This document shows, one piece after another, positions 22,643 to 42,200 of a stretch of DNA of 64,000 nucleotides; positions within the stretch are counted from its first letter, which is position 1; every line of letters begins with the position of its first letter. A model generated the notes under the pieces. It was not told where the DNA came from and made no database searches. It saw only the letters and a list, made by a program, of their open reading frames with translations. The translations under genes were made by a program, and so were the position numbers. This DNA comes from a virus. The stretch is from the IMG/VR virus record IMGVR_UViG_3300025671_000004, positions 1 through 64,000 of that record; one strand, given 5' to 3'.

Positions 22643-25600
22643 TTAATCTTTCTTAGATCGATCCATTCGTCTTTCCATCTCCTTGACTCTTCCCGATGGC
22701 GAGTCTTTTCCATACAATCTTTCGTATAGGTCCGGATACTCCTCCTTGAGTTTGCTCTTGGGCATTGTTGGATTCTTCTTCTCCTTAATGATGTCTTTGT
22801 AGATCATGGTGTTCATAATCATTCTAACATCTGCGTAGAATGGAACGTATCCAAGGTTCCCCGCCATCTCAATGACAGCTCGGTAATTCTCTAATTCATC
22901 CCTCTTGATTGCGTCAATCTCTACCTTTTCCTTTTCGACTAGTTGCTTTCCTGCAAACTCCATTGTTCTCAAAATTGGAGACATTGGCCCCATGATATTC
23001 ATCATGATATCCATCATCATATTCCTTCTAGGATCGGGCTGAATAGGAACAATTGTATACGCGATCTTATCTTCATACGCATCGTAATCACCATCCCTAA
23101 GCATATCTAGATACTTCATGTTAATGTACTCGACATTCATATTGATGAAGGTCTTGGCTATGTTACCAAAGTCTCTTCCTAATATCAAGCCCGATACACC
23201 CGATACCACGGCGCGACCGAAGTCTAATGTAGTATACTCGTCATCATCTCCCGATATTAATGATCTAAGCGCTCCGGAAAGATACTGAGTCAAGGCAGAG
23301 TAGATCACCATACGAGTTGCTACTGCGGTCATGATTGCGGCACCTTGTCTAGGTGTTATGTCACCCCTTCCGATTGCTGCGTACATGCCATATCGGAATG
23401 AGTTGAACTCATACACAAGGAATCGCGTCATGTAGTTGTTGAATATGTGAAGTATCTGAGAGAATGCCGATCCATTGATTGGTCTACTTTTCGCCGCAGA
23501 AAGAAATGGATTGTCAGATGCACCTAATAGCACAGATTTTTTGTCGGCCATTTTTCTAGCCGCATCCAATGCATCTTGGTTTTCTGAGATGTACTCTTGA
23601 TCGTTGTTCTTGATCTTTTCAAAGTCTATATCCTTTCCCGATTGTTTCTTAAACTCCTTGGCTAGGGCCCCAAACCAAAATGGTCTCATGATAGCTTGGT
23701 CGGGGGTGGTGATCATTTTGTCTGCGATCACCTCTGATGCATCTCGAATAGACCCAAGACCAACGCCTCTCACTTTGAATGACCCAATTTGCTGAGCCTT
23801 ATTGAGGATGTCATTCTTGGCTCTCGACCTATTAACGCTTCCTGCATCATCTTTCAATGTGCCATCAATCATCCTCCCTGTAAGTGTACCTTGTGGGTAT
23901 ATCCTAGACAACTGAACAGATCCAACGTTTTCCGCTATGGCGACACCATCAGGGCTAGAATATATCGATGCGTACTTCATGCCCGAGAAAAAGGATTTCG
24001 AATCAACCAACATAGCAAAAGCCGCGTTTGATAAAAATTCAGATATTGCTCGTGTTGACTTGGCTAGGACTGCTCTGTATCCCCACTTTGAAAGATATGA
24101 AGTAACGTCATCCATGAATGTTGTTTCATGCGTTGATGACATCAGCACACTCTCTACGGCAGATTTGTGAGCCATTTTTATAACATCGAAGAGTTTCTCT
24201 TTCTCGGCCTTCTGCTTCCTCTTCTCCTCTATCCTTTTTTCTATGAGCTCCTTATCTTCTTTCGATGCAGATTCTAGTTGGCTGTTCAAGTCTTCCAACT
24301 CTTTTGCAAACTTCTTCTTTATTTCATTTTCCGTGTTTCTTATCGTTCTATAAGATGTCCTCACAGGCTCAGTCATATAGTAGTCCATGAACACATCTCT
24401 AGCTGCCGTAGACACAGACTTAAATGCGTCAAAGTCAATCGGATTAACCTGCCCTGTTCTCTCCTTTATGATGCCTGTTCTTGTCGATGGATTCATCGCA
24501 TTCATGGCGTTTTGGGATTGAGTTAACTGTACACCGCTTGCGCTTGGGTCGACAATTACTGACAGGTGGTTGTAGGCATTCAATGGCTTCATGCCCTCTC
24601 CATGAACAACTAAACCAAGATGGGTGGCCAATGGGAGCAGGGATTGATTTATCTTCTCGATTGATCTTATGGCATTTCGCTCTGCCCTGTTTAATGAGTT
24701 CTCTATTTTTTGAAGATCGATTTGACCGTTTGTAGAAAAGTCCTTCCTTATCCTCTTCAGAATCTCCGCATCCTTCTTAGTGTAATCTCCTTTTTCTGCT
24801 TCTGCATACTCGATTGTTGCGTCCAAAAACTTTATTGCGGGATTTACCTTGCTATTACCGGGGTTGTTTTCAAATTCCTTCTGAATTAGGTACGCGGTCA
24901 TCTTGTACTTGGATTCGGTCACACTATTGTGATTGTAGGAAAAAGCCTCGTACAGCTTTTTGTCCAATCCCGACAAGGTCTCCAACACCTTCTTGTTCTC
25001 TGTCTTGAATCTACTGTGACCTATTGCGGTATTTTCAAATAGGGTGTTGTATATGGTCGGTGTTTTGAAGTCTCCAAAAACTTGATCTATAAAGTATAGT
25101 GGAGTTCTTTCGGCCATCACCGTATACTTATTCTTACCTTTAGAGAACAAAGCTTTAGCGCTCGCAATAACCCTGCTTATGAGCAATGGCTTTGCATTCA
25201 TTACCGATTCCGCCAACTCTATTGTAGCTCTTCTAGACTCGATCCTCTCAACCAATACTTGTGTTACGTTGTGAGCGTACCCATTATTGGCATTGTCTAC
25301 TACCTTTTGAAGTTTCTTTAGGTCGGATGGCGACATTTTCATCATGGCCTCGGTATCCTCTATCAGTTTTTTCAATCTTCTGAGTAGGGCCTCTTCAGCT
25401 TTTGGCAAACCTTCGGGTATACTAAGCTTGAGGGACATGATGTCACTTATTATACTCCTACGCTCTGCGTCAAGCTCTTGATCTGTCATGGTGTCTGAGA
25501 CCTCATTTGATAGTATGGATAGCTTCAGTCGCACCATCATATCTCTTTCTTCGATGGTAATTATACCATCGTTCACCATCTTATCGAGCGTCTTCTCGTA

Positions 25601-28600
25601 CATCAATTTACCATCAGAAGACATCACTTTGTCAGAGTAATCTTCAAACGCCATCTGAAGGTCCACAACTCGTGCATTTTCTGCATCAACTGCATCCATC
25701 ACCGTGGTTACTCGGTCAACCAACTCTCTAGCCTCTCCAAGATCCAACACGGCTGCACTCGTTCCCAACTCCTCTACTATCGAGATGTACTCATCCATGA
25801 CAGATGGTGGGATGGATTTCTCAGAGATTGAAAGCATTTTGTCAACCAATGCATTGTATCCAAAGAGGCTTCCTAACTTCTTCTTGATGTTGTCCTTGGC
25901 CTTTTTACGCATCACTTTAAGCTTTGCAGACCTATCCTTGTACTCTTCGTTCTTTACAACGTTGGATACAAAGTCAGCAAACGCTCTTATGGATGCGTCA
26001 GATGCAGGATTGACTCGGCTAAATCTTTTGAGGATTTTACCCGCTTGGCGCATTGTCAACTTCTTCTCCTTCACCAATTCGTAAACCTCTTTTGCCAACC
26101 TTTGTTGAACGGCCAACACAGCTCTGATACCACGGCCTTGAGTTCTTATCTGAGAAGAAAGGGCTTGTTTCGCTGATATGGTTATGTTCTCGACATCAAA
26201 TGTTTGACCCAATATGGTGCTTGCCTTTGGTGACTTCCTAATTGAATACCCATGATTCATCGTAGTAAGCATCACAGCCCTATTCCTAGTAATATCGTCT
26301 GCCTTTTTGTAGAAATCGCTAGCCTCCAATATCTCTATGGCCTTTGCAAGTATATCTCGTTTCTTGGCACCCTCATCAGCCATGGTGTTGTAGTTTTTCT
26401 TGATGCGACTTGCTACAGCTTTGTAGCCTTCTTTCTTCGACATCTCTTTCTCTAACTCCTCTTTCTTTCTCTGCTGTCTAACAACATTCATGCTTGACTT
26501 GGGGGGTTCTGCACCAATCATCTTATTCTCAAACTCGGTTGCCCTACGACTTGCCAAGCGATCGAATTCAGCTTTGCTCATGTATATCTTATCCTCTTCA
26601 GCAACATCCTCTGTTTCGGAAAGAGCTAAGTTGTCGAGTTCCCTTTGACTTAGGTTCATCCTTCTTCGAACGTTGTTGGCATCAACTTCACCCGCAAAAC
26701 TTTTGTAAACATCATGCAGCATGCTCCGTGCCGTCTTCGGCCCCATTATGGTGTATATCTTTGCTAAGTTTCTCTGCTCTTCATAGTTCAGATACCTTAA
26801 TGCAGCCAACTTGTTTCCTCCCCAAGGCATGTCCTCTATGTATTGTATGGCATGTTGGATTTCATGCAACATTGTTCCTTTTAGGGTATCCTCAAAATCA
26901 GAAAGGCGTGAAAATACCTTTCTCATGTCCGTGGATATCTTCTTGGGGGTTCCCGCATAATCTTTCGCCCTTCTCTCATTTCCTTGTACCAAGATTTTAA
27001 TCATATCGTCAATGGCGCCATTGACATCATTATCGGGACTCGAGTTTTTTATAATGAAGTCCATTGTTTCTCTCTCTAGCCTTCTCATAAGAGGGCTGTC
27101 GGGGATTTTTGAACCTTTTTTAGCGAATGCTAAATGCTCTGAGACCCTAGCGATATACTCTCTCACAGCTAGTGGAAAACTGTCATAGACTCTCTGTACT
27201 ACGTTCGCAGAAATTATACTACTCCTGAGGGCTTTGAAGTTTTCCTCACCATCGGTTTCTTGTGTTGGAACCACGACCGTAATCAATTGGGTGTCAGTCC
27301 TTCCGACCGGAGTGCTATACTCCCCTGCAAACATGCTGTATATGCCCGAATCCCCTCTCCCTGTTTCGCTAATCATTAGTTTGAATGGAATGTTCTTTAT
27401 GGAAGGATAGTGCTTGAATAGCTCGGGGTGATCTATTACATCCCCCACAGTCAGATCCTTCTTGCTCATAGCTATAACATCTTCAACATCCTGCCAAGAT
27501 CTAACATCTAATTTAATCCTAGCATCACGGTCACTTATTTCAAACATCCACTCAGAATTAGCGGCTTTGTAAAAGCTAGTCAACGCTTTGATCTTCTTAG
27601 CGGACTCACCGGCGGCATCCATCTCCATGGCTTTGCGCTTCTTGTCTGCTAACTCTGTAGACAGGTTTGCATTCTTGGAGCCAATGTACTTTCTAACCCT
27701 GTTCTCAGACTCCATCTCTTCTTCTGTTCTGAGTTCAAGCGGGGTGTTAGACTTGGCGTACTCAATCCTCTCCTCGATTTCTTGTATCTTCCTGTTGACT
27801 TCTTGCCTTTTATTTGATGGAAGTCCTTTTCTAGATTTTTTAAGGTCATCAATCAATGTGTTTAAGGCGGATATGTATGCATCTAAAGTTACCTTTGGCT
27901 TTTCTTTTGCAGGCGCCTTTGGCTTTTCTTTTGCAGGTGCCTTTGGCTTTTCTTTTGTACTTGGTTTAGTTGGTGTTTCTTTTTTCTGAGCTAATGAAAC
28001 GTTAGCTATTGCATCTGTAAAATTCTTAAATCTTCTCTTAGGCGTCCCTGTTGGTGAGTCAGAGATAACAAAACCAATAGGAGATCCGTCAGTCAAGACA
28101 GATTCGCTCCTGTCTATAATAAAACCACTACCGGATGGCGATGTGTATGACCAAACCGATTCCCCTTTTCTGTTTTTACTTTCTTGTTTTATTTCTGCAT
28201 CTCCAAACTTCTCAACTTGTCCTACTTTTTCTTCGGTTTCAGTTTTTGGAATCTCAGCTTTCGTCTCCTTTGGCGTAGGCTTTTTCTTCGCTGCAGGCTT
28301 TTTCTTCGCTGCAGGCTTTTTGACGGCGGGTTTTTTGGCAGCGGGCTCTTTGACGGCGGGTTTTTTGGCAGCGGGCTCTTTCTTTACGGATGGCTCTGCC
28401 CCCATCATTGTTCCGCCTAATAAAGGACCAAAAGCTTTAGAGCTTATTCTACCATCAAGAAAATCCTTTTGAACAACTCTATCTTTCGGATCCCCTTCCC
28501 TCATTACAAACCTCTGAACTATTTCCCCATCGGCATTCTTGTAGTAGATCACATTTACGCCATTAGCTAAAAATAAATTATCCGACTCAAATACGGCCAA

Positions 28601-31600
28601 TACCTCAACCGCCCCTTCGGGAGTTTCATACTCAGCCTCTTCAGCAGTCTCTACTTCTTCAGCAGTCTCAACTTCCTCGTAAGCCTTCATGACTTCCTCC
28701 GTGAGAGCAGCTATGTCTTCCTCTAATGACTTGTACTCCTCTGTTCCCGGAACCATATCAGAGATATCATCCTTCGCCATCTGAAGAGCCTCCTCTGCAT
28801 CCATGGCATCATAGTCATCTATAATCTCTTGGATGTCTCTTTTTTGCTTGGTCGGTACTTGCTTGGTCGGTTCCTTCTTGGTCGGTTCTTGCTTGGTCGG
28901 TTCCTTCTTGGTGGGCTCTACCTTTTTAGGCTCGGGCTGAGGTTTGCGCTTAACAGGCGTTTCTTGCGCTTTTTTTATAATCAGTTCCGCTTTTCGTGGA
29001 TTAAACTTACCATCCTCTCTACTTTTTTCGTTAATCTCTTGTAGCCTCCGCTTTATTGTGTTTACATCTATATCTTCATTCTCGTCAAAAGCCAATGATA
29101 TAGAATAGAATCCACGCCTACGAACAAAATCTTCATGCCTACCTTCAATTAAAGAAATTATTCTCTTGCCGTTCTCAACTCTTGTGCTAAATACAACCTT
29201 GCCATAAGGAACCTTACCCCTTATATCTCCTGTACCTAGTCCTCTCGCAAAGTTTGTCACTCGCTTACCAACCAATCGCTGAAATCCTTGAAACGTTCCC
29301 TCTATGGTTACTTCGGATTGTGGTAATATCGTTTGCTCCTTCTTGGCAGGTTCTTTCTTGGCAGGTTCCTTCTTCTTTGTAGCCTCCTTCTTTGGCTCGG
29401 TCTTCTTCTCAGCCTTCTTTGGCTCGGCTTTCTTAGGCAACCTAGTCATGGTCGCTCTTTTTTCATCCCTTACAAATCCAAATTTTTCATAGAAGGCCCT
29501 AAGTTTTTGAGGGGTGTCAAATCCCTCCACTTTCTCCATTCCTGTTATTAGATTTGCGGTTAATTTAAGGGTTACGTTATTCTTGTCCGCATACTCCGTG
29601 ACGATCTTCATTATAGCGGAACCATTACCTGCTCTTTGACCTCTTTTTTCGCTTACGACTTCATCTATTTTTACAGTATTGTCATCAATAAATCTAAGTG
29701 TTACTCTTCCAAGCAGATTTCCATCAGCATCAGTTGCCGCATATCCTCCCTGAATATCATCAAATGGGAAAACCTTATTCATATCTTCGAAGAATTGATC
29801 GCTATTTGTATTAGCCTTCTTCTCTTCTTTCTTGGGTTCTTCCTTCTTGGGTTCAGCTTTTTTGGTAGGCTTTTCCTTAGTTTGTCTGTAGTATTCGTCA
29901 AAATACTTCAATTCAGACTCAGCCTCCTCTTTGGTCATATCAAGTAGTGTGCTTGCATTGGTGTTTGGAGCAACTGAGTTACCTATTCGAACACCATAAT
30001 CAAGCGCATTCTCAAGATACCCTGTGTCTGCTTTTTCTTGTAATGCAGCTCTGTATTGCTCCGGAGTAGACTCAATAATAGCATCGAAAAACTCATGGTA
30101 GATGAAAGTATTCTTTGCCGAGGCTCGCTCTCTTTCTTTTTTGTTTTTAGGTCTAGCAGGCTCAGCCTTCTTCTCTTCTTTCTTGGGTTCGGCCTTCTTG
30201 GTCGGTTCCTTCTTGGCGGGTTCTTCTTCTAATGCTTTTAATTTTGCATCATATTCGGCGTTGATTTGCCTATCCCTTATTTTAGATGCTTCTTTATTTT
30301 CATTTATAAAAGCCTCTTTACCTTTTTGAAAACTTCCCGGGGTCATCAACAAACTTCTTGTGCCCATAGAAGTAGCTCCATCATCATAAGGGTTAATGCC
30401 AATCCATTCTTCAGCGGCCTCTATTAATTCATCTCTTGTTTTAGCAGATTTAACCCTATCAAGAGGTTTATTTAATTCCTCTTGTCTTTCTCTTTCTATA
30501 TCAGCTTTTTTAGCTTCTATATCGACCTCGGCTTTTTTCTTTGTCGGTTCCTTCTTGGCGGGCTCTTCCTTCTTAGGCTCAGCCTTCTTCTCTTCTTTCT
30601 TGGGTTCAGCCTCTTCAGCCCGGAACTCTGCCTTAGGTTTAGAAACTAAACTCTCAACTGTCTTTACAAGCTCAGGATTAGTTCCATCTGTTTTTGCCTT
30701 ATGATAAGATTCAGATATTGATTTTGCTTTATTGTTGTAATACTTGAAAAAATCTTCTCTTGTTAAACTATCTACTTTTCCACCTATTGCATTCCAAAAA
30801 CCTTGTGAATCATCATCATAATAAATAACATCTACATCTTTATTACTATTAAATATAGATGCAATAGCCATACTGCCTTCTCCTATAGCACCTGATTTAT
30901 CAGAAGTTCGTTCTCCTTTATTCCTTTCTATGCTTAAAACTTCAACCTCTCCTGCATCATTAATCTCATAAGATATTCTACCATTACGCCCAAAGTCAGC
31001 CGTTATAAGTGTAAAGCCTTCATTTTTTTGTGCTTCTGCTTCTGTAACATTAGACAATATGTTAATTGTCTTCAAAGCATTTGTAGTTGTTTCTACATTA
31101 GCCTCCTCTGTTGTGGCCTCCTTCTTCTTTAGTTCAGCCAATTCTTCATCATATTTGGCGTTGATTTTTTTTAAAACTTCTTCCGGTGTCTCACCTGTTA
31201 TTCTTTCGACTGTAGGCTTTCCATCCGGATCCGTCTTATTGGAAACGTATAATCCACCAAACTTTTTATCGCGACCGATTATACTTCCCAATTCATTAAG
31301 GCTATAACTTCTCCTTGCCTCTATGTCCTCTTCCTTGGTCTTCTCTGTTGTGGTCTCCTTCTTCGGTCTTCCTCGCTTCTTTTTAGGTTCTGCTTTCTTT
31401 ATCTCCTCCTGCACTTTCTCGAAGAACCCTTCTAGTGATTCACCTCTTGCCATGGTATCGGAGATCGTAATCATGAAGTCCACGATATTCTTTGGCGTGG
31501 CTGTACTTAGGAATACAGGTGCGCCAAGAATGCGCTCTGCGTACCTGTTGATGAGGTCTCGTATCTGATTGATAAGAGTTCTCTCTTTATTTGTCAGCCT

Positions 31601-34600
31601 TTGGAGGTTGCCCATCTCCCTTGTCAGAAGGGCACCGAACTGAGCTAAGAACTCTTCTGCGGCAATATCGTCTCCGTATTGGTTTGTAAACTCCTGTAGC
31701 TCTCTGAGTAAGTCGTCATATCCGTTGTCCTTTAAGATCTTTTTTATCTCTCCCCGGAACTTCTTAAACAAAGTTTGATTGTCTCCAAACGCCTTCAGAA
31801 GTATACCATGCCATACTTCGTGAGGCATCGTTGTTTGGTCGGCGTACTCCTCGTTAATGAGGATGGCCTTTACTTCGTTGGTCTTCGCATCTATGACAAT
31901 GAAACCACCTTCATTTCCTTGCGCTCGCAAGTTGGTGCCGCGCATTGTGTTCTTAACCAACTCATTGATGGCGTCTATGTTTTTTAGTGTTACTATGGTT
32001 GCATTCGGGAATATAGTCTTGGCAGATTTTATAACGTTGTCGAGTATGGTCTCATCTGACATCACCGAGAACTTCCTTCGCTCAAGTTTTCTTGGTCTCT
32101 TGGCCTTCTCCTCTTCGCGAATGTCATCAACAGTCATTTCAAACAGCTCTACCAATGCATCATCAGAAGATATCTCCTTCTCCCTTTCACTCAGCTCTTC
32201 GTTGTTGTACATTTTGGCAGCTATCCGCATGATGGTCTGATCGGAAACGTCCCCATCTTCTTTGTATGCGCGGTAATCCTCGTCAGATATTGGATCTACT
32301 TCTTTGGCTTCTTGTTCACCTTCTCCGGTAGTGACTTCAGATTCTGCTTGTACTTCTTTACCCATTTCTTCGCCACCTTTGGGTGTTTGGCGAACATCAG
32401 TCTCATCTGACTCTTGCTTTTGAATGGCATCTTGTTTTTGTTTTTGTTGTTCTGCTTTTATCTCTGCGCCGGTCATGTAGTATGAATACTTTTTCGGCGT
32501 TTTAGATGTCTTTTTCTCACCAACAGGAACACCTAATATGGACTCCCTGTACTCAATGGTCTTGTCACCAACCTCTTTAACTCGGTCTCTATACTGCTCG
32601 GGGACTTGATCTATGTCGTCAGCAAACATGAGCACCTGCTCATTGTCTCTGATAGATGCTATAGCTCTGTTAAGCTTAGCTCTGTCACTTCTTCTCTCTG
32701 CGGCCTGTGATATCCTTGTAATCTTGTCATTTATTTGCTGTATCCTTTTATTCTGAGCATCGGTTTTTTTAACACCTAATGACGCAGCTTCCTCTTCTAT
32801 TGATTCTCGCTCCATAAGAAGATTGAATACCCTTCTTCTTTGCTGCTCATTCATTTTCGTTTGAGGAATAGCCTTAGCCAATTCCCTCATCTTCTCTAAT
32901 ACTGCAATTTGAGTATTTTGCTCATTCTCTGTTATGGATCCCGCTTTCCTTTGGTTTACCACCTGTCTTTTAAGAGACTCGAAGGTTTTGTCATCCATGA
33001 GAGCCTTCTCTATTACAGAGTACTTGGTGGATGAAAATACATTAGCACCAAGCAGAGTGCCACCTGTTGATGCTATAAATCCACCCGCAGCTCCCAATAC
33101 CACATTTTCAAAGAATTGATTTACATCAAATCTGTCATCCAATCTATCTGTATTGCTGATTGCATTACTCAATGCCTTTACCCCTACACCAACAGCATAT
33201 TCAGCACCTTCAGATATACCTTCTTCTACAGACTCCTTAAGCATCCCTATACCTATTTTTTTGAGAGAAAACTCAACGGCCTTGTCCATCATTTTGTCCT
33301 TGATGACATTCTTTACGCCCTTCTCCTTGATATAGTCCACGACATGTCTTCTAGCAGCAGAAGTCATCATCCTCTTTCCTATTTTGCCCGGAACGAAAAC
33401 AGCTAGTGGTGTTGTGATTGTCGAGTATGCCATGGCCAACTCTTGAGCTTCAATGTGGTCTAGACCCTGCCCTCTGAGGTCTTCGTACATTTCGTCAGCC
33501 ATCATTGTTGCTGTAACGCCCCACATTGCAGCGGGACCACCAACAGCCGTTGATCCAACTTGTAAAGCTAATTGACCTACCGTATTACCAATGAATGCTG
33601 CTTTTTTATCAGTTAGATCCGTTCTAGTTTGAGCAAGCTCCGAAACCTTGGCCGCGCCTTTTACGAACTTCTCAATTTGTTCAGTCTTTATTGGTGCGAT
33701 AAATTCATCGTAAAACTCAAGATCTTGACCTCCAAAAATCATATCCGCAATGTAGAGAGACCCTCTCCTAGCCTTGTGTTCAGCTAATGCAGCCATCGAC
33801 ACTACTTGTGCAACGTAGCTAGGTGTTTTAGCTAGAAACGCGTTGTAGAAATCTTCTAAGCCTGTAACTATTGGGTTACTTAGGTCGCTTTCCGTTAGAA
33901 GGCTCAGCGATTCCAATGCATTTTCCCTTTCTGCAAATTCCTTCTTTGATTTCCCTAAAGATTCGTTGTAATCACTCTTGAGCTTTTCTATGTTTGAGGT
34001 TATCTCATTGAACTGCTCTTTGTTGTTGTTTAGCTTTGCGTCATTGAGTCCGTATTTTGTCGCCCAATCAACATACTCATCCAACTCCCTCTTCTTCTCT
34101 GAAACCTCTTTGTATATGACTTCGTTCCTCTTCTTTGTGCTACTTGCTATAGATCTTAAGAGGCTTTTTGATAATTGTTGACGCTCATTGTCTGTTGCGT
34201 ACTCAGATATAGCCGTTGTTACATCGGAGTCAACTAAAGAGAAGTCAACACCAACCATAACTCTTTCACCATCTTCCCCCCAATCATAAATAATGGCTTC
34301 CTGCGGGATCTGATCCATAATTTCTTGAGGAAGATTATCATAAGGATTGAACCTTTGAATTTTCTGAGTTTCCTCTTCATATGTACCAAAACCTCCTTTG
34401 TATCTAGGGATATCCGTTCTATCTTGGGTAGGGGCTTCGGGGGCTTTTGTTATGCCGCGATCGGGTGCCGGTCGTTGAATCTTCTCATCCGCGAACTCTT
34501 CTTCCCCAACGCCCAATTTTGCCAAAGACTCCAATGTGACTTCGGGCTCTTTTTCTTTTTCTTTTGGCTTTCCAACAGACTCTTTCTGCGGTAAAGGTGA

Positions 34601-34918
34601 TTCGCCAACAGAAGATTTTTTTGGTGATACTGATTCTTCTTTTTTTTTAATAATACCACCATTCACGAGGGCGTTGAATTTTTCGTCACCATACCTATCC
34701 CTAAGAACTTTCTCGGATATCTCTGTATCCTTGAAAATCCAAGACGGTCCGCCATCGGTTGCCGTTTCGGGTGCAGTTGATGGAGCGATTGCGCCAACCT
34801 CTGTGTACTCCTTTATGATACCATTATCAATAAGCTTTTGGAGTTTCTCACCACCATATCTTGACAGGAGATCCACCTCGTTGATCACCTTTCCTTTGTA
34901 TGTATATTTTTTAGGCAT
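22643..34918 (-). CDS. Giant 4,091-aa polyvalent internal virion protein
   Basis: An uninterrupted 4,091-aa frame, one fifth of the window. Domains seen: (1) residues 1-95, two copies of a 35-aa motif ending R-Y-G-(G/D)-E-K-(L/F)-...-G-I-I-K; (2) about 340-640, Gly/Ala-rich, possibly membrane-active; (3) HEVWH at 1033-1037 with a downstream E-E-F-L-A-Q, a zincin; (4) a GNAT-like domain at about 1700-1825 (GNGSAIMKIV, FYEKFGFV) and a weaker one at about 1300-1400 (FWNAIGG); (5) about 2455-2760, an LPD23-like peptidase region with HEIQH at 2685-2689; (6) a helical C-terminal third with hydrophobic segments. Residues about 1170-2270 are broken by Lys/Glu/Pro/Ala-rich linkers. Position and layout match ejected core proteins such as T7 gp16 and large polyvalent phage proteins, which carry enzymes into the host. 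Confidence 0.85.
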   Translation of the reverse strand: MPKKYTYKGKVINEVDLLSRYGGEKLQKLIDNGIIKEYTEVGAIAPSTAPETATDGGPSWIFKDTEISEKVLRDRYGDEKFNALVNGGIIKKKEESVSPKKSSVGESPLPQKESVGKPKEKEKEPEVTLESLAKLGVGEEEFADEKIQRPAPDRGITKAPEAPTQDRTDIPRYKGGFGTYEEETQKIQRFNPYDNLPQEIMDQIPQEAIIYDWGEDGERVMVGVDFSLVDSDVTTAISEYATDNERQQLSKSLLRSIASSTKKRNEVIYKEVSEKKRELDEYVDWATKYGLNDAKLNNNKEQFNEITSNIEKLKSDYNESLGKSKKEFAERENALESLSLLTESDLSNPIVTGLEDFYNAFLAKTPSYVAQVVSMAALAEHKARRGSLYIADMIFGGQDLEFYDEFIAPIKTEQIEKFVKGAAKVSELAQTRTDLTDKKAAFIGNTVGQLALQVGSTAVGGPAAMWGVTATMMADEMYEDLRGQGLDHIEAQELAMAYSTITTPLAVFVPGKIGKRMMTSAARRHVVDYIKEKGVKNVIKDKMMDKAVEFSLKKIGIGMLKESVEEGISEGAEYAVGVGVKALSNAISNTDRLDDRFDVNQFFENVVLGAAGGFIASTGGTLLGANVFSSTKYSVIEKALMDDKTFESLKRQVVNQRKAGSITENEQNTQIAVLEKMRELAKAIPQTKMNEQQRRRVFNLLMERESIEEEAASLGVKKTDAQNKRIQQINDKITRISQAAERRSDRAKLNRAIASIRDNEQVLMFADDIDQVPEQYRDRVKEVGDKTIEYRESILGVPVGEKKTSKTPKKYSYYMTGAEIKAEQQKQKQDAIQKQESDETDVRQTPKGGEEMGKEVQAESEVTTGEGEQEAKEVDPISDEDYRAYKEDGDVSDQTIMRIAAKMYNNEELSEREKEISSDDALVELFEMTVDDIREEEKAKRPRKLERRKFSVMSDETILDNVIKSAKTIFPNATIVTLKNIDAINELVKNTMRGTNLRAQGNEGGFIVIDAKTNEVKAILINEEYADQTTMPHEVWHGILLKAFGDNQTLFKKFRGEIKKILKDNGYDDLLRELQEFTNQYGDDIAAEEFLAQFGALLTREMGNLQRLTNKERTLINQIRDLINRYAERILGAPVFLSTATPKNIVDFMITISDTMARGESLEGFFEKVQEEIKKAEPKKKRGRPKKETTTEKTKEEDIEARRSYSLNELGSIIGRDKKFGGLYVSNKTDPDGKPTVERITGETPEEVLKKINAKYDEELAELKKKEATTEEANVETTTNALKTINILSNVTEAEAQKNEGFTLITADFGRNGRISYEINDAGEVEVLSIERNKGERTSDKSGAIGEGSMAIASIFNSNKDVDVIYYDDDSQGFWNAIGGKVDSLTREDFFKYYNNKAKSISESYHKAKTDGTNPELVKTVESLVSKPKAEFRAEEAEPKKEEKKAEPKKEEPAKKEPTKKKAEVDIEAKKADIERERQEELNKPLDRVKSAKTRDELIEAAEEWIGINPYDDGATSMGTRSLLMTPGSFQKGKEAFINENKEASKIRDRQINAEYDAKLKALEEEPAKKEPTKKAEPKKEEKKAEPARPKNKKERERASAKNTFIYHEFFDAIIESTPEQYRAALQEKADTGYLENALDYGVRIGNSVAPNTNASTLLDMTKEEAESELKYFDEYYRQTKEKPTKKAEPKKEEPKKEEKKANTNSDQFFEDMNKVFPFDDIQGGYAATDADGNLLGRVTLRFIDDNTVKIDEVVSEKRGQRAGNGSAIMKIVTEYADKNNVTLKLTANLITGMEKVEGFDTPQKLRAFYEKFGFVRDEKRATMTRLPKKAEPKKAEKKTEPKKEATKKKEPAKKEPAKKEQTILPQSEVTIEGTFQGFQRLVGKRVTNFARGLGTGDIRGKVPYGKVVFSTRVENGKRIISLIEGRHEDFVRRRGFYSISLAFDENEDIDVNTIKRRLQEINEKSREDGKFNPRKAELIIKKAQETPVKRKPQPEPKKVEPTKKEPTKQEPTKKEPTKQVPTKQKRDIQEIIDDYDAMDAEEALQMAKDDISDMVPGTEEYKSLEEDIAALTEEVMKAYEEVETAEEVETAEEAEYETPEGAVEVLAVFESDNLFLANGVNVIYYKNADGEIVQRFVMREGDPKDRVVQKDFLDGRISSKAFGPLLGGTMMGAEPSVKKEPAAKKPAVKEPAAKKPAVKKPAAKKKPAAKKKPTPKETKAEIPKTETEEKVGQVEKFGDAEIKQESKNRKGESVWSYTSPSGSGFIIDRSESVLTDGSPIGFVISDSPTGTPKRRFKNFTDAIANVSLAQKKETPTKPSTKEKPKAPAKEKPKAPAKEKPKVTLDAYISALNTLIDDLKKSRKGLPSNKRQEVNRKIQEIEERIEYAKSNTPLELRTEEEMESENRVRKYIGSKNANLSTELADKKRKAMEMDAAGESAKKIKALTSFYKAANSEWMFEISDRDARIKLDVRSWQDVEDVIAMSKKDLTVGDVIDHPELFKHYPSIKNIPFKLMISETGRGDSGIYSMFAGEYSTPVGRTDTQLITVVVPTQETDGEENFKALRSSIISANVVQRVYDSFPLAVREYIARVSEHLAFAKKGSKIPDSPLMRRLERETMDFIIKNSSPDNDVNGAIDDMIKILVQGNERRAKDYAGTPKKISTDMRKVFSRLSDFEDTLKGTMLHEIQHAIQYIEDMPWGGNKLAALRYLNYEEQRNLAKIYTIMGPKTARSMLHDVYKSFAGEVDANNVRRRMNLSQRELDNLALSETEDVAEEDKIYMSKAEFDRLASRRATEFENKMIGAEPPKSSMNVVRQQRKKEELEKEMSKKEGYKAVASRIKKNYNTMADEGAKKRDILAKAIEILEASDFYKKADDITRNRAVMLTTMNHGYSIRKSPKASTILGQTFDVENITISAKQALSSQIRTQGRGIRAVLAVQQRLAKEVYELVKEKKLTMRQAGKILKRFSRVNPASDASIRAFADFVSNVVKNEEYKDRSAKLKVMRKKAKDNIKKKLGSLFGYNALVDKMLSISEKSIPPSVMDEYISIVEELGTSAAVLDLGEARELVDRVTTVMDAVDAENARVVDLQMAFEDYSDKVMSSDGKLMYEKTLDKMVNDGIITIEERDMMVRLKLSILSNEVSDTMTDQELDAERRSIISDIMSLKLSIPEGLPKAEEALLRRLKKLIEDTEAMMKMSPSDLKKLQKVVDNANNGYAHNVTQVLVERIESRRATIELAESVMNAKPLLISRVIASAKALFSKGKNKYTVMAERTPLYFIDQVFGDFKTPTIYNTLFENTAIGHSRFKTENKKVLETLSGLDKKLYEAFSYNHNSVTESKYKMTAYLIQKEFENNPGNSKVNPAIKFLDATIEYAEAEKGDYTKKDAEILKRIRKDFSTNGQIDLQKIENSLNRAERNAIRSIEKINQSLLPLATHLGLVVHGEGMKPLNAYNHLSVIVDPSASGVQLTQSQNAMNAMNPSTRTGIIKERTGQVNPIDFDAFKSVSTAARDVFMDYYMTEPVRTSYRTIRNTENEIKKKFAKELEDLNSQLESASKEDKELIEKRIEEKRKQKAEKEKLFDVIKMAHKSAVESVLMSSTHETTFMDDVTSYLSKWGYRAVLAKSTRAISEFLSNAAFAMLVDSKSFFSGMKYASIYSSPDGVAIAENVGSVQLSRIYPQGTLTGRMIDGTLKDDAGSVNRSRAKNDILNKAQQIGSFKVRGVGLGSIRDASEVIADKMITTPDQAIMRPFWFGALAKEFKKQSGKDIDFEKIKNNDQEYISENQDALDAARKMADKKSVLLGASDNPFLSAAKSRPINGSAFSQILHIFNNYMTRFLVYEFNSFRYGMYAAIGRGDITPRQGAAIMTAVATRMVIYSALTQYLSGALRSLISGDDDEYTTLDFGRAVVSGVSGLILGRDFGNIAKTFINMNVEYINMKYLDMLRDGDYDAYEDKIAYTIVPIQPDPRRNMMMDIMMNIMGPMSPILRTMEFAGKQLVEKEKVEIDAIKRDELENYRAVIEMAGNLGYVPFYADVRMIMNTMIYKDIIKEKKNPTMPKSKLKEEYPDLYERLYGKDSPSGRVKEMERRMDRSKKD
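27893..28920 (-). repeat. Tandem repeats encoding Lys/Pro/Ala linkers
   Basis: Inside the giant gene, several short direct repeats are stacked: TTTCTTTTGCAGG-type units near 27900-27960; GCTGCAGGCTTTTTCTTC and GACGGCGGGTTTTTTGGC units near 28288-28380; and CTTGGTCGGTTC units near 28846-28916. They encode runs such as K-A-P-A-K-E-K-P, A-A-K-K-P-A-V-K and E-P-T-K-K-E-P-T-K. The protein repeats resemble histone H1-type tails. Such repeats expand and shrink by slippage, so linker length probably varies between relatives. Confidence 0.75.
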
Positions 34919-34921
34919 ATG

Positions 34922-36484
34922 TTATTGTTCTGCTACAATTTCGTCAAGTTCATCAAATATATCACCGTCCGAACCACCGCCTTGTTGTGCGCCGGTATCC
35001 AAGTCCCTAATTGAATTAAGACCTAGTCCTGTCACAATATCATTTGTAGACAGGTATGTTGACATATAGGCTGCCAATCCATTCAGATTTTCGCGCATTT
35101 CCTCTTGAACACTTTCATATTCCGGAAGAACCTTACCCGCGTTCTGTTTGTCGGAAGATGGGTAGTATTTCAATCTACGCGTTGGAACGGTATATCCCGC
35201 ACCACCTGCACCAAGTGGGACTACAACAATTTTATCTCCGTCTTTTTTGAAGTCAAAGTATGACGCATATCCACCCAATGCTGTCTGAAGTTGAGGGATA
35301 CTTACCGATGGATCTCTGTCAATCATTTGAGGAGATAATTGGGCCTTCATCTGCTCAGTTACCACACCCCTACCTTTTGAAGTTAGAGCGTCAATGTATG
35401 CCTCGCGCTCTTTGTCTGTCATTTCACCATAACTCTTAGTGGTGGTAGGTGGTGTTTTTGTAGTACGGCCACCCGAGTAGTTGTACTTAGGTATAGAATC
35501 CTTCTTAATGCTTCGATCTAGCATTGTTCTAAACCTTTCCCTCATCGCGTCTTCGGCCTCCTTCTTCTGATCAGGGTCAATCTTCGGAACAGGGTTTCCG
35601 TTCGGATCATACCCAACCAATATCTTCTTCTTATCCTTCTTAGCCTCTTCCGGGTCCCAAGTGAATGAGTACCCCAAAGCATTATAAAGAATATCAGAGG
35701 CATTGTATGGATTGGATAGCATGCTTTCAATAAAAAGCTTCTCAGATTTCTCGAAATCCTCTTTTTCCATGACATCCTCCACGGTTTCAAAGTAGCCTCC
35801 CGAAATCTGCTTGATTATTTCCTTTCCAAGTCTATCTGCGCCACTACTCAGCACGGCATCAAAATCATATTTGTCGTACTCAGTCTTCAATATGTTGTTC
35901 ATCACGTTCATAGGCATGATGTTACCCGGAGATGTATCTACCTCCATCTCGCCTGTTTTTTCGTTCTTCTTGAACTTGGCGACACCAACTTGACTGTTGA
36001 GAGGGTTGACGTATACGCGCATGTTTTTGAAATCGGTGTAACCTTCAACACCCTCCATCAAGAAGGATTCAAAACCCATGCTTTTATTATTAATACTCCT
36101 CTCTAGCTTTTTTGAGTACAGCTCATTGTAACCTTTAAACGCATTTATAACACCATCGGCACCATCGAATAGTTTCTGACGGCGACTCGTGTAATCTTGA
36201 ATGGTTATATCCCCTGCGTTGAGAAGTTTATTCAGCATCAACATGCCTTGAGAAAGCTGATTTGATGCATTCATTATCGCTTGATTAGCATCTACGTCAT
36301 CTCCTAACTCGATAGAGGAAACCTTCTGCACATAATCATCAGATGACTTTCTAAGTTCAGCTTTTTGCTTCTCCCTTGCAGAGGCTTCATCCTTTATGGA
36401 TTTTGATACGGAATCAGTTACAGAGGACCAATCTATAAGTCGGTCAAGATCCCTTTCTTTCCAACCGAAAAAACTATTAGCCAT
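34922..36484 (-). CDS. Internal virion protein (T7 gp15-like position)
   Basis: 520 aa, hydrophilic and largely helical in the first 130 residues (SVTDSVSKSIKDEASAREKQ), then mixed charged sequence with a Gly-rich, acidic C-terminus (GGGSDGDIFDELDEIV). No enzyme motif seen. It lies between the 205-aa core-like protein and the giant protein, the order of T7 internal proteins gp14, gp15 and gp16, so an ejected core role is inferred from position. Gap of 3 bases to the giant gene and an 8-base overlap upstream. Confidence 0.65.
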   Translation of the reverse strand: MANSFFGWKERDLDRLIDWSSVTDSVSKSIKDEASAREKQKAELRKSSDDYVQKVSSIELGDDVDANQAIMNASNQLSQGMLMLNKLLNAGDITIQDYTSRRQKLFDGADGVINAFKGYNELYSKKLERSINNKSMGFESFLMEGVEGYTDFKNMRVYVNPLNSQVGVAKFKKNEKTGEMEVDTSPGNIMPMNVMNNILKTEYDKYDFDAVLSSGADRLGKEIIKQISGGYFETVEDVMEKEDFEKSEKLFIESMLSNPYNASDILYNALGYSFTWDPEEAKKDKKKILVGYDPNGNPVPKIDPDQKKEAEDAMRERFRTMLDRSIKKDSIPKYNYSGGRTTKTPPTTTKSYGEMTDKEREAYIDALTSKGRGVVTEQMKAQLSPQMIDRDPSVSIPQLQTALGGYASYFDFKKDGDKIVVVPLGAGGAGYTVPTRRLKYYPSSDKQNAGKVLPEYESVQEEMRENLNGLAAYMSTYLSTNDIVTGLGLNSIRDLDTGAQQGGGSDGDIFDELDEIVAEQ

Positions 36485-37094
36485 TGTTGTGTTGTTCGTT
36501 TATTGTGTTGGTCTTACTAGATGAATCCTCCTCAGGTAGATTGTAGTTTGTTGGTATAAGCCCCAACATGTCCTGTGCTGCGCCACCCATCTGTTTTAGC
36601 ATTTGATTCATGTATACGTTGTACGCATTCTCCCTATATGCAGCAGCCTCTTGAGCCCCCATCGCTTCAATCTGATTGATCCTAGACCTAGCCGCTGCTA
36701 ATCTAGATTCCTCCGTGGCGGCAACTTGATTTAGTCGCTGCATCTCAGCAGCCATGTCAGCCCTAGTTCTTCTTTGAGCCTCTTGAGCTTGTCTCTGAAT
36801 AAGAGGTATAGATCCGATACCCCTATCCGATTCTCTAGCAGCCTCAATGGCTTGAGCGGCAGACTGTATCATGGCTTCACGCTCCAAGTCGTATGGCTCC
36901 ATGGCTATAGAAAGTCCTGCCATATAATTGGTGCTTAACTCACCCCTTGCTTGAGCTATTGCTTTTGCGGCTGAGGCCTGCGCCTCCCGCATAAGTCTTT
37001 GCTGTTCTGATGCCTGTTTGAAAGACATGCCTGCGCCTATTGCTTTTACGGCGGCAGACCCTATTGCTGCGATTGCGGCTGTTTCTAATCCCAT
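36477..37094 (-). CDS. Internal virion protein (T7 gp14-like)
   Basis: 205 aa, Ala- and Gln-rich. It begins with a Gly/Ala hydrophobic segment (AAIAAIGSAAVKAIGAGMSF), followed by long helices (QQRLMREAQASAAKAIAQAR, QAQEAQRRTRADMAAEMQRL). This composition is characteristic of podovirus gp14-like core proteins that may form part of the ejection channel in the outer membrane. Overlaps its neighbours by 8 and 10 bases. Confidence 0.7.
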   Translation of the reverse strand: MGLETAAIAAIGSAAVKAIGAGMSFKQASEQQRLMREAQASAAKAIAQARGELSTNYMAGLSIAMEPYDLEREAMIQSAAQAIEAARESDRGIGSIPLIQRQAQEAQRRTRADMAAEMQRLNQVAATEESRLAAARSRINQIEAMGAQEAAAYRENAYNVYMNQMLKQMGGAAQDMLGLIPTNYNLPEEDSSSKTNTINEQHNNG

Positions 37095-37498
37095 GATTTT
37101 ATCAATTCTTGTGTTGAACTACCTCTCAAGAATCCTTCCCTCTCCAACCTACCATTAAGAACTCTTGAGTTTGATGCGAAATAACATGCTTTGTATCCCC
37201 TTGCAAAAGCCTCTCTTTCCAAGTTCTTAATCAGCATTGAAAAGGCTTGACTTCTATTTGGTTTCTTCCTGTAGTGTTTGTTTGATACCACCCAATTTAT
37301 CCAACAGATTTTTGAATTGGTGTCATATATGTATCCCGCACATACAGGTGTTTCTCCGTCAAAAACTATCATACCACCCACTCCGTTTTCGGGCAAAATA
37401 TCTCTAGATGGAGGAGTAATCCAACCCCAAGAATTCCACCATGGCGTAAGAATAAGGTCGTAATCTTTATACTCTAAGGGAATGCACACCATGCTCAT
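37085..37498 (-). CDS. GNAT-like N-acetyltransferase
   Basis: 137 aa from the ATG at 37498, just downstream of a TATCTTTG promoter element. GNAT layout: a beta pair GGMIVFDGETPVCAGYIYD, then ICWINWVVSNKHYRKKPNRS where the acetyl-CoA loop would lie, then an A-F-S-M-L-I-K-N-L helix and a C-terminal R-V-L-N-G-R-L-E-R-E-G-F. Phage GNATs of this type often lie in structural operons; the substrate is unknown. It may act with the GNAT-like domains of the giant protein. Confidence 0.65.
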   Translation of the reverse strand: MSMVCIPLEYKDYDLILTPWWNSWGWITPPSRDILPENGVGGMIVFDGETPVCAGYIYDTNSKICWINWVVSNKHYRKKPNRSQAFSMLIKNLEREAFARGYKACYFASNSRVLNGRLEREGFLRGSSTQELIKSWD

Positions 37499-37503
37499 TG
37501 TCA

Positions 37504-37511
37504 CAAAGATA
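37504..37511 (-). promoter_or_regulatory. -7 promoter element before the GNAT/core-protein genes
   Basis: TATCTTTG on the minus strand, 5 bases before the ATG at 37498 and in the only real gap (18 bases) between the tail and internal-protein genes. No clear -33 element. Confidence 0.4.
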
Positions 37512-38329: not shown

Positions 38330-39279
38330 TTTGCTATACCTGTTATCACTCCGTTCGCATCCACGATTATCACCTTCTTAGTTGGCGTCAAATCCAACTT
38401 GTAATCTCCTGCAGGAACCTTTGTTTCGCCATACTCGTCCAAGAATATGAAGTCGTACAAAGATGGGTCGCCAAAGCTAGATCCGTCAACAGGAGCATTG
38501 TAGAACGTGTTTGGGTATGTTGAAGATGCACAAGTACCACCAACATCAGATGCGTCAAATCCTGTTAGTTTCACCGGGCACCTAACCTCGATATCCCACT
38601 CGGATATTTCGCAACAAGCCAAAACGCTAACTGTTACGGATGGGTAGTACACGTTTGTTCTTGGTATCACCATTAAGCACGACCCGGGCGAAACGCCTGA
38701 CGACAAACTAACCATGCTAGTTGTTATGCCTAAGGACTCTAGGGCGCCCTCTAAGACGAAACCAATGTTATCCTTGTAGAAGTACCTATCGTACTGACGA
38801 GATGATGTGTTTACGGATAGGTTTGGGCAGTATTCGGGAGAGGCCCCTGTGGACTCGGCATCATTACCTATGATGGTGTATGTCGTTGGTCCTGCACTAC
38901 TCCCATGGAAACCATCAACAGGGGATGTAAGTTTGTTGTATGAGTTTCCCCCATATGACGCTTTTATCCCATTCGCCACATTGTTTGGGTTGAAGAATAT
39001 CAACACCGCACCTGTATACAAACTAGGGTCATTCCCTAGTCCAACAGTCATATTGTATATCCCTCTAAACACAGATGTGGATACAGAGAAAATACACTCT
39101 TGACTAAGTGTATCGCAGGGGGCAACAGCGGCCAAAACACCGCCCACTTGCCTCCTTACGACTCCATTGAATGAATACCATCCATCGGGTGCCGGAGTGG
39201 TTAAAGTAGAGTCGGTGTAGACCGCATATGCCAATGCGAAATCGGGATTGTCTATGTAAAATGTTCCTTGTGTTGCCAT
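38320..39279 (-). CDS. Structural protein, Cys-containing tail or hub protein
   Basis: 319 aa, Gly/Ser/Thr-rich beta protein with scattered Cys (APCDTLSQECIF, LACCEISEWDIEVRCPV). The C-terminus, K-L-D-L-T-P-T-K-K-V-I-I-V-D-A-N-G-V-I-T, looks like an Ig-like strand pair. It overlaps the 1,595-aa protein by 1 base and may decorate it. No named family recognised. Confidence 0.6.
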   Translation of the reverse strand: MATQGTFYIDNPDFALAYAVYTDSTLTTPAPDGWYSFNGVVRRQVGGVLAAVAPCDTLSQECIFSVSTSVFRGIYNMTVGLGNDPSLYTGAVLIFFNPNNVANGIKASYGGNSYNKLTSPVDGFHGSSAGPTTYTIIGNDAESTGASPEYCPNLSVNTSSRQYDRYFYKDNIGFVLEGALESLGITTSMVSLSSGVSPGSCLMVIPRTNVYYPSVTVSVLACCEISEWDIEVRCPVKLTGFDASDVGGTCASSTYPNTFYNAPVDGSSFGDPSLYDFIFLDEYGETKVPAGDYKLDLTPTKKVIIVDANGVITGIANCP

Positions 39280-42200
39280 TATGGACAGTCGCAGCTAGTT
39301 AAAGTTATTGTCAGACCCGCATCAATTGATGAGAGGGATTTTATACAGTAGCTCGTAGTTTGGCCGGATATAAGCGTAAATGTCTGAGCAATGTCGTCAC
39401 AATCTACGAATGCAATATTGAGTGATCCGGCCGTAGGGTTGCTTACTTCATAATACCCGCAAACATCGTCACAACTTTCAACAAACGCAACACCCGATAT
39501 CTCGGCTGTAGCAACGCCTCCAACATCCAATGCAGTAACCTCAAACACGCATTCGGGGTCAAATGCGAGGAGCTTCACAAACTCGCCAAGGTTTACACCG
39601 AATGCTCTCGGTACAACCCTAGTTTCAACAACACCATCCTCGCGGCATTGCGTTACTTCAATAAGCTCGGTGCCTTGACATCCAAAGCATGCATCCTCGT
39701 CATCGGTCAAACTCTGACATAGCGTTATTTGATAGTCACGAACATAGTCGTATATGAGGTACAGGTAGTGGTCATTTGTTGACGGCATTGTGAATGACGC
39801 CTTGAATTCGGGGTCACTACCTGTTATTGGTGTAGCGGCAGATGAAGCAGCCAACAGAGCGGCTATTCCGCCGGGTGTGTTCGAGTAAAGCGTATTTGAT
39901 CTTAGATATCTGAATCCATCTCTCGATGCGTCAAAGATAAGGTCATCCCCATCTTGAACGATCTTCTTAGATATCATTGAAACAACGGCTCCATCTGCAG
40001 GTATGTATCCTCCACCTTGTGGTCCCGAGAACCACTCGAACTGAGAAACGACATACGCGGTCGTGCCTAGAGCCATCTGCACTTGCGTGGAATGTAATGG
40101 AGAGATAAATGACCCATCAGTCCACCTGTATTGGTTGTGTATCTTTTGATTGAATACGGCCGAGCTAGATAGCGTCACTTGGATGATGTTAATCTCTTGA
40201 GCTTCGGGACATCTAACTGTTAAAATGATATTTGTTTCCCCGGACACAGCCGACACCGTAATGTCTGCAGATGTGATACCAACAACACCTTTCGGGAAGT
40301 TAAGTGACCCCGAAGTACTTACAGGACCACTAGAGTAGTTGGTGCCATTGTAGTTCACCGTTATATTCACAGACCCTGTGGTGCTCACGATGTTATAATC
40401 AACATAAGAGTCACCAACAGTTTCTCCCAAATCAATGCAATCAGAGTATGATGTAGATTCGTCAACGGTTACTCCTTTCGTGAATCCACATGGTTCACAC
40501 TCATCTTCTACAGGTATTACCTTGTCGGAAATGTGCAGAACGTATTCATCGTTATATGGATCGTATCCGCCAAGCTTGAATGTACCCGAATTGCTTATGA
40601 AGGTGTCTCTAAACCAAGAGTCCATTAACCCTGTGATATCTCTTAGGGATTCATTTGGCACCCCTCCACCTGTAAGCATTATAACGGCACTTCTTTTTTC
40701 ATCAGTAAACCAACGCAATGCCCCATACTTGGCGTAAGACTCGGGATTGTTGCTTATGCCATACTCTTCCTTTCTAGCTATCTGAGTTCCCAATACCTCG
40801 GGAACGGATGTGACCGCTCCTCCGCCGACAGCATCGGACAAGAGGTTCTTGTTTACTAGAACATACGAAATCATATCCTCTTGAAGAACCAAGATGTTGG
40901 TATCCATTCCATCCAATACTTGAACAGGTCCGAACGAGTCCTCTAAATCCTTGAAGTTTAGCAAGCTTGCATTGAACTCATTTAACTTATTAACATTGGT
41001 CTCATCGTTGTATATTCCGCTGTACGTTATATCAGCATACCTATGGGCCTGCCCATACTCTTGGGCAGCAACGCTAGTGACTCTATTGCCCAAAAGCATT
41101 GACTTACCAATAATGGAATCCTGTATTTTGTAACTCTCAGCGCCGTTTCCAAAACTATAGCAGTTGAAAAAAGCCGTATCTATGATCGCAGGAACTCCTG
41201 TGCTTACATTCTGATCTTGAACGTTTCCTAGGTGGTTTCCTCCGGATATTTCATAAGAATCTGATGACTCATACCAAACATCGGGTAAGGCATCCTTTGG
41301 TTCTGTTTCGAATATCAGATCTGCAAAACTATCTCTGTACACAACAATATTCAGCCTTACAACTGACTCCTTCTTACGATAACACGCCCTCATACCAATA
41401 GCACACAAATACCTCTTACTCGCCCTAGTTGGACAGTCGTCATCGTCAACAAACCTTAAAAAGATACTCTCATTATCCCCCTGTGGTAGCACGGATTTAA
41501 TATCATCGCAACCCGCACCCAAGGATGACATTGATATAACCGTTGGGTCATAATCTATCACTACAGGAGAGCCTCCACAAAACGATGAAGAATCAAGTGC
41601 GCTAGATATAAGTGACGCAATACCCTCTGAATCAAACCAAGATTTAAAGTCTGAGTAATCCCTCTTTGCGGTGGCCGTTATATTTGAAACACCCGACTTA
41701 GTGTTGCAAGACCACGAACAACCTCTCCCCTCTCGGTCTGCGTTTACGCTAATCGAAATAGTCGCGCCTTCGGGTATTGAATAATCTATCCATGGGTCTG
41801 TTGCTGATGTGGCATTTGGATCCTCAACTTGAACCTCATATCTCACAACAGGCCAATCATCACCTTGGACTGAGTCTGTTTTTTGGCCGTAATATATCCT
41901 CTGACGACTTTGGCCGGAGACAGAAAAGTCATTTGAAGGTATCTTCATGTAAGTACCCTCAGTTGCTGATGGTATAAAGCCCGCAGTTTTTACGGATTTT
42001 TCTAAAACAGAAACCTCCACATACCTATTTAGTGGCCCCGAAGTGTCAGCTTTTACTATCAGCTTGTCGCCCTCTTCAACCTTCCTTATGTTCTCCCCCT
42101 CTAATTTAACCCAACAGAATGCATCCACCTCAAAGAATGCAGCAGAGTATATCGTGTTATATGTTTCCTTTTCGGGCTTTATAGCAAACTTATAGTGTGA

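Follow-up and report, generated by a model that had tools for sequence, protein, structure and literature searches.

A giant cysteine-free polyvalent protein closing the late operon of a Bacteroidota-type podovirus, with a predicted role as an ejected carrier of exchangeable enzymes

The final late gene of the virus IMGVR_UViG_3300025671_000004 encodes a single chain of 4091 aa without one cysteine, which, with good probability, is an internal virion protein ejected into the host together with two cysteine-free partners of 205 and 520 aa, carrying enzymatic cargo. Its architecture, the conservation of its motifs, its place in the late operon and an absence of cysteine that extends across the family, as in known injected proteins, are directly seen. 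By its predicted domains, the giant belongs to the known class of phage polyvalent proteins, and its conservation pattern describes a conserved chassis with swappable cargo. Here it is proposed that the protein probably enters the host as infection begins and serves there as a multi-tool.

The giant gene and its genomic setting

The stretch of DNA analysed, called here the window, has 64,000 nucleotides and is nearly the whole of the IMG/VR record (65,864 bases). The giant ORF (22643..34918, minus strand) is a single stop-free frame with an ATG start, and takes up 19% of the window, in agreement with the first-pass annotation of one 4,091-aa chain in a fifth of it, to which the strand is added here; the plus strand across the same region has stop codons throughout. 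Its ATG sits within a few bases of the stop of the preceding gene, and it is the final gene of a late operon on the minus strand, which runs in the order terminase (52054-54327), portal (49613-52057), capsid-type protein (46978-48405), a 1595-aa tail/virion structural protein (39279..44066) that has 30 cysteines and serves as a contrast, the cysteine-free 205-aa virion structural protein in the position of T7 gp14 (36477..37094), the cysteine-free 520-aa protein in the position of T7 gp15 (34922..36484), and the giant.

These late genes are a short-tailed-phage set, and the phage is a Bacteroidota-type podovirus. Homologues of the 1595-aa tail protein were found in 87 phage records (tblastn), giving a Pachyviridae/Elemovirus-like late module; the nearest phages by this protein are ctfjg026 (Manatee Spring), Cellulophaga phi18:3 (Pachyviridae) and the Flavobacterium elemo phages, which have giants of 3859, 1935 and 3694 aa, respectively, at the matching place. 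The window giant is the longest among the family members examined. The tail protein encoded on a 15-kb IMG/VR contig (L005) is 100% identical to the one in the window, and the two are probably one phage population sampled twice. The window also encodes a phage-borne GroEL chaperonin (1217-2851; phrog_5725, E 2.3e-124), and both groEL and groES are present in related phages. Between the virion genes lies a 139-aa gene (37085-37504) with a GNAT-like look, whose counterpart in ctfjg026 is annotated as an N-terminal acetyltransferase complex subunit; because it has 4 cysteines, it stands outside the cysteine-free rule described below.

The place of T7 gp16 had been assigned to the giant, and the position does match, the giant being the last and largest of the internal virion protein genes; the sequences, however, have no detectable homology (hhalign E 0.7), and none was found by profile comparison with T7 gp15 either. 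The gene order, the late position and a large last member are shared with T7 gp14/gp15/gp16 and with P22 gp7/gp20/gp16. Unlike the ejection proteins of T7 and P22, the window giant is far larger, and cargo enzymes replace the cell-wall-degrading domain of T7 gp16.

Absence of cysteine in the giant and its neighbours

The other genes of the window contain 144 cysteines in 13,621 aa, from which about 43 would be expected in the giant, against the 0 in 4091 aa found. Base composition as the cause was ruled out, since position-specific base composition predicts 34 in-frame cysteines for the giant and TGY codons occur 63 and 182 times in its other two sense frames.

The comparison was extended to the ORFs of 79 related loci, sorted by homology only; these counts replace a contrast of ORFs of at least 900 aa in loci L005-L084 which, being divided by cysteine number, was circular. 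The homologues in the gp14 position have 0 cysteines in 13,227 aa (48 of 48 cysteine-free), those in the gp15 position have 4 in 24,901 aa (43 of 45), and the giants of these loci that bear the core described below have 1 in 16,883 aa (9 of 10). This stands against 103 cysteines in 27,477 aa for the portal homologues, 136 in 22,727 aa for the capsid homologues, 83 in 24,243 aa and 112 in 22,530 aa for two further late proteins, and 1961 in 123,704 aa for the homologues of the 1595-aa tail protein; the cysteine content of portal, capsid and tail homologues is 0.4-1.6%. Additionally, 65 non-redundant giants, picked by core homology and mostly with incomplete frames (8 of the 65 are complete in their locus), contain 8 cysteines in 141,163 aa. 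For the 72 loci with the first protease domain, the longest plus-strand frames total 82,794 aa and 21 cysteines (none in 52 of the loci), and 30 in 75,604 aa were counted in loci with the LPD23 module (48 of 64 without cysteine), these being 64 of the 160 loci fetched, chosen by long matches and not by cysteine. One frame with this module, in an Alistipes senegalensis contig (L195), is cysteine-rich (7 in 758 aa) and could be a non-phage or decayed version and a helpful contrast.

The T7, P22 and T4 proteins used as controls, and N4 gp50, are known to be injected into the host. Cysteine is absent from T7 gp15 (747 aa) and gp16 (1318 aa), from P22 gp7 (229 aa), gp20 (471 aa) and gp16 (609 aa), and from T4 IPI (95 aa), IPII (100 aa), IPIII (193 aa) and gp2 (274 aa), as well as from N4 gp50 (3500 aa), gp51 (644 aa) and gp52 (150 aa). 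The giants of the Pseudomonas phages H66 and 8P have 1 cysteine in 3787 aa and 2 in 5145 aa, respectively, and the crAss001 cargo proteins gp45, gp46, gp47, gp49 and gp50 have 2, 0, 1, 1 and 3 in 842, 534, 2341, 1349 and 2412 aa. In gp49 and gp50, which are RNA-polymerase proteins, there is a cysteine at residue 5 and the remaining chain is nearly free of it. Exceptions among injected proteins are T4 Alt (3 in 682 aa), T7 gp14 (1 in 196 aa) and T7 gp6.7 (1 in 88 aa), and some proteins which are not injected also lack cysteine, namely T7 gp9, N4 gp56 and gp57, the P22 scaffold and gp26, and the 374-aa head protein of the window at 48439, counted among the non-injected; the T4 tape measure gp29 is cysteine-free too. 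Because of these cases, a single short protein without cysteine carries little information; when the absence spans an entire gene block and thousands of residues, however, it is hard to explain otherwise than by ejection.

For the polymerases of N4-like phages, both the absence of cysteine and this explanation are already in print (PMC3715699 and PMC5795418). No statement of the absence as a general rule for injected proteins was found in open-licence full texts, and the word cysteine does not occur in the ejection-protein review PMC8954989. New here is its use as an independent argument for ejection.

Conserved core, N-terminal tag and exchangeable cassettes

When the window giant was compared by segment with 23 complete or fragmentary giants from related phages, the N-terminal part was weakly conserved, the first HExxH domain was common to 3 of them, the middle of about 1200 aa was without relatives, the module of LPD23 and the second HExxH was common to 1, and the C-terminal core to about a dozen. 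This core (residues 2807-4091; 22646..26500, minus strand) is almost all helical in its model (pLDDT 75.6, pTM 0.74), bearing out the helical C-terminus proposed before. It matches PHROG 32588 and the elemo giant (hhalign 99.4%), and viral contigs contain at least 115 relatives, which were reached by alignment queries, a single-sequence pattern search of viral contigs with the core or the LPD23 domain having returned none. Its mean column identity is 49% (60 sequences), against 11% and zero invariant columns in the roughly 400-1000 aa that immediately precede it in 50 relatives. Comparison of the core with the ctfjg026 and phi18:3 counterparts gave no significant homology, none is detectable in phi18:3 gp123 or H66, and the core has no solved relative in the PDB. 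A search of a viral model library gave 46 matches at E ≤ 0.001, and many of the matched models are pieces of phage giants that bear the names polyvalent, ART-PolyVal, N-acetyltransferase or structural protein; because the TM-scores past the closest relatives are low (about 0.15-0.5), the wider structural link of the core to phage giants is only suggestive.

At the other end, two repeat copies of about 32 aa and about 44% identity were read by eye (residues 5-36, 34811..34906, and residues 60-91, 34646..34741, minus strand), and the giants of relatives often start with two short repeats. They are followed by a KKK...S..G tag (residues 91-115; 34574..34648, minus strand). Among 31 non-redundant giants, picked by length and low cysteine content and not by KKK, 29 have KKK within residues 31-135, mostly after one or two short repeats, whereas control stretches taken from these proteins have it in 32 of 622 cases; the longer form with S..G.S is present in 22 of the 31 against 4 of 497 controls. 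The tag is absent from the phi18:3 and elemo giants, and those of H66 and 8P are without KKK but have a doubled short motif at the start. The repeats and tag may together be an address for packaging or exit. Further along is a Gly/Ala-rich stretch (residues 440-640; 32999..33601, minus strand), for which membrane contact is a weak possibility; the segment had been called possibly membrane-active, for which hydropathy gives no support, as no stretch reaches a usual transmembrane threshold and the best Kyte-Doolittle 19-residue mean is 1.47, from residue 606. The window, ctfjg026 and elemo giants also have in common a QKQ...E motif with a Gly/Gln/Glu-rich stretch after it (residues 825-890 of the window giant).

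Two HExxH motifs are present at exactly the residues given in the first-pass annotation, 1033-1037 and 2685-2689, where about 0.014 would be expected from the composition of the giant. The first (31808..31822, minus strand) lies in a zincin-type domain (residues 877-1165; 31424..32290, minus strand) and is invariant in 57 of 57 aligned sequences. In this alignment, H1033, E1034, H1037 and E1089, the last being a candidate third ligand (31652-31654, minus strand), are the sole invariant columns (H154, E155, H158 and E210 in the numbering of alignment A5), as would be expected of an active HExxH...E zinc site, and the domain is predicted to be a protease. The domain model (pLDDT 78) has a strand sheet and then the HExxH helix, and a zincin fold is likely; matches to solved zincins are weak, with a best Z of 6.1 and no Foldseek hit below 0.001. 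The best structural neighbours are N-domains of the lethal-factor type (Z about 6), a likeness that may reflect a common arrangement only. No solved structure is a convincing relative of this domain, and 50,697 phage records contained no relatives of it.

The second motif (26852..26866, minus strand) is invariant in 34 of 34 aligned sequences and has a candidate ligand in E2744 (26687-26689, minus strand). It follows LPD23, a large polyvalent protein associated domain (residues 2413-2468; 27515..27682, minus strand), which scored 30.5 bits in the genome search, over the cut-off of 27, and 23.5 and 26.9 bits, just under it, in protein scans. In this arrangement of LPD23 and then HEIQH...GE, none of the 34 sequences, which come from many phyla, departs from the H, E, Q and H of the motif or from the G-E pair further on. 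The module is encoded by at least 241 viral stretches and by 128 stretches of genomes. The 3787-aa protein of Pseudomonas phage H66, annotated as verified in the virion by mass spectrometry, contains it as well. Conserved as the HExxH sites are wherever they occur, they are missing from half of the relatives: 12 of 24 giants or fragments have them, as do 23 of 65 core loci (visible part only). They are not universal in the family and are assigned to the exchangeable cargo, not to the conserved body.

Between the two protease domains, the cargo string (residues 1184-2344; 27887..31369, minus strand) carries islands on Lys/Glu/Pro/Ala linkers, the window giant having eight islands set apart by near-identical linkers; this variable middle of cassettes is hypervariable. 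The island at residues 1703-1827 (29438..29812, minus strand) is a GNAT acetyltransferase, which alone scores 24.9 bits with PF00583 (curated cut-off 20.7) and matches the solved GNAT of PDB 1r57 (E 3.3e-6). Several GNAT-like domains had been proposed, of which this one stands; a second near residues 1240-1430, plausible by eye, is without Pfam support. Peptidase_M1 at residues 3527-3620 and SAT at 1069-1137 were below the Pfam cut-off and were dismissed as chance. The NCBIfam scan of the giant gave nothing, and no polymerase family was found in it by the Pfam or NCBIfam scans. Upstream of the core in 50 of 57 non-redundant relative fragments, the Pfam scan found LPD23 (4), ART-PolyVal (4), SprT-like (3) and GNAT (Acetyltransf_7, 1).

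Ejection, its alternatives and related phage systems

In the proposed model, the giant and its two cysteine-free partners would be packed in the head and exit first, with the helical core and the N-terminal repeats and KKK tag as a carrier for placement in the head and exit through the tail. The three would cross the tail and envelope as partly unfolded chains; unfolding on exit has been proposed for the crAss001 cargo (PMC10172136). In the cytoplasm, the cargo islands would refold, including two zincin-type metalloproteases, LPD23, the GNAT and unassigned islands on flexible linkers. The proteases would then most likely cut host or defence proteins, or release islands by cleavage of the linkers, and the GNAT would modify a host protein. 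Packaging, ejection, enzyme activity, targets and the roles of tag and linkers are thus predictions for the window phage.

Presence in the virion is annotated for two counterparts, the 1935-aa protein of phi18:3, a virion protein 'based on experimental MS/MS proteomics', and the 3787-aa protein of H66, found in virions by mass spectrometry. Because neither has detectable core homology with the window giant, this evidence speaks by position; that of H66 bears also through the LPD23-protease module. Together with the absence of cysteine, these annotations make ejection appear better supported than before.

In the main rival explanation, packaging and ejection also take place, but the proteases act only in the particle, where they mature the giant itself or further head proteins, and little enzymatic cargo acts in the host. 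In-head processing by such domains is one option proposed, as for N4-like polymerases, in PMC5512222, the linkers flanking the islands look cleavable, and among the late genes scanned none was recognised as a prohead protease of its own. However, maturation cannot depend on HExxH, because the half of relatives without it keep the same core and neighbours, and it gives no sense to GNAT, LPD23 and ART-PolyVal in relatives; this explanation is considered unlikely. Clearly less probable still is that the giant, like a tape measure, acts as a structural ruler or channel and that its enzymatic domains are degenerate: although the core is mostly helical, 3 of 9 relatives give weak matches to a tape-measure model (best E 0.0066) and T4 gp29 shares the lack of cysteine, the catalytic residues as sole invariant columns of the first protease domain argue against decay, the giant lengths vary about twofold among related phages, unlike a ruler, and the gene set is that of a short-tailed phage. 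Least probable is a giant made late, not packaged and acting in the dying host; in its favour, virion presence is a prediction for the window phage, but the absence of cysteine common to the giant, the two preceding genes and known injected proteins, as well as the mass-spectrometry annotations on positional counterparts, speak against it.

Preferring ejection with active cargo, the giant can be set beside known systems. Its earlier description as a phage counterpart of polyvalent proteins holds as to the class; the idea is not new, because phage polyvalent proteins, including those of the N4 type, are already described in Iyer et al. 2017 (PMC5512222). With these the giant shares several unrelated enzymatic domains in one chain (at least two, here the pair of conserved zincin-type sites and the GNAT), zincin-type proteases, an LPD domain (LPD23) and a location among late virion genes. 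It differs from them in another core family (the C-terminal part, PHROG 32588), in a very long string of Lys/Glu/Pro-linked cassettes, in the N-terminal doublet and KKK tag, and in its total lack of cysteine. N4 gp50 and its N4-like relatives likewise are giant cysteine-free virion proteins ending a cysteine-free three-gene block, with a protease domain in the same chain according to PMC5512222; however, N4 gp50 has no detectable relation to the window core (hhalign E 0.57), and a polymerase domain is not recognised in the window giant. T7 gp15, T7 gp16 and the three P22 proteins resemble it in being cysteine-free. The H66 and 8P giants share LPD23 followed by a HEIQH-type protease, the near absence of cysteine and the doubled short N-terminal motif, but have a different core and neighbours and no match to the first protease domain or the GNAT. 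crAss001 gp45-gp50 are also cysteine-poor giants stored in the capsid, seen by mass spectrometry and proposed to unfold on exit (PMC10172136); unlike the window giant, they are RNA-polymerase-related, not strictly cysteine-free and without the KKK tag.

A wider proposal is made tentatively, at slightly less than even confidence, that exclusion of cysteine is a general rule for the proteins that tailed phages push through the envelope, where a free thiol would be trapped by the tail or the oxidising periplasm, and that with the N-terminal repeat/KKK address tag and exchangeable cassettes on a common helical core it would form a delivery system, in many phyla, whose injected effectors could be read from sequence.

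The proteins injected besides DNA decide the first minute of infection, and so far they have been recognised one by one. The mark described here needs only the sequence, falls exactly on the three genes in the gp14, gp15 and gp16 positions, and is shared by most of the injected proteins known from textbooks that were examined; for specialists, the point is a sharp cysteine-free gene block by which the proteins likely to be ejected can be picked out without data beyond the sequence. With its conserved carrier and exchangeable cargo, the family makes it possible to ask which parts serve packaging and exit, and what the proteases and the acetyltransferase do in the host. If true, the cysteine mark would let candidate injected proteins and effectors be listed from the genome.
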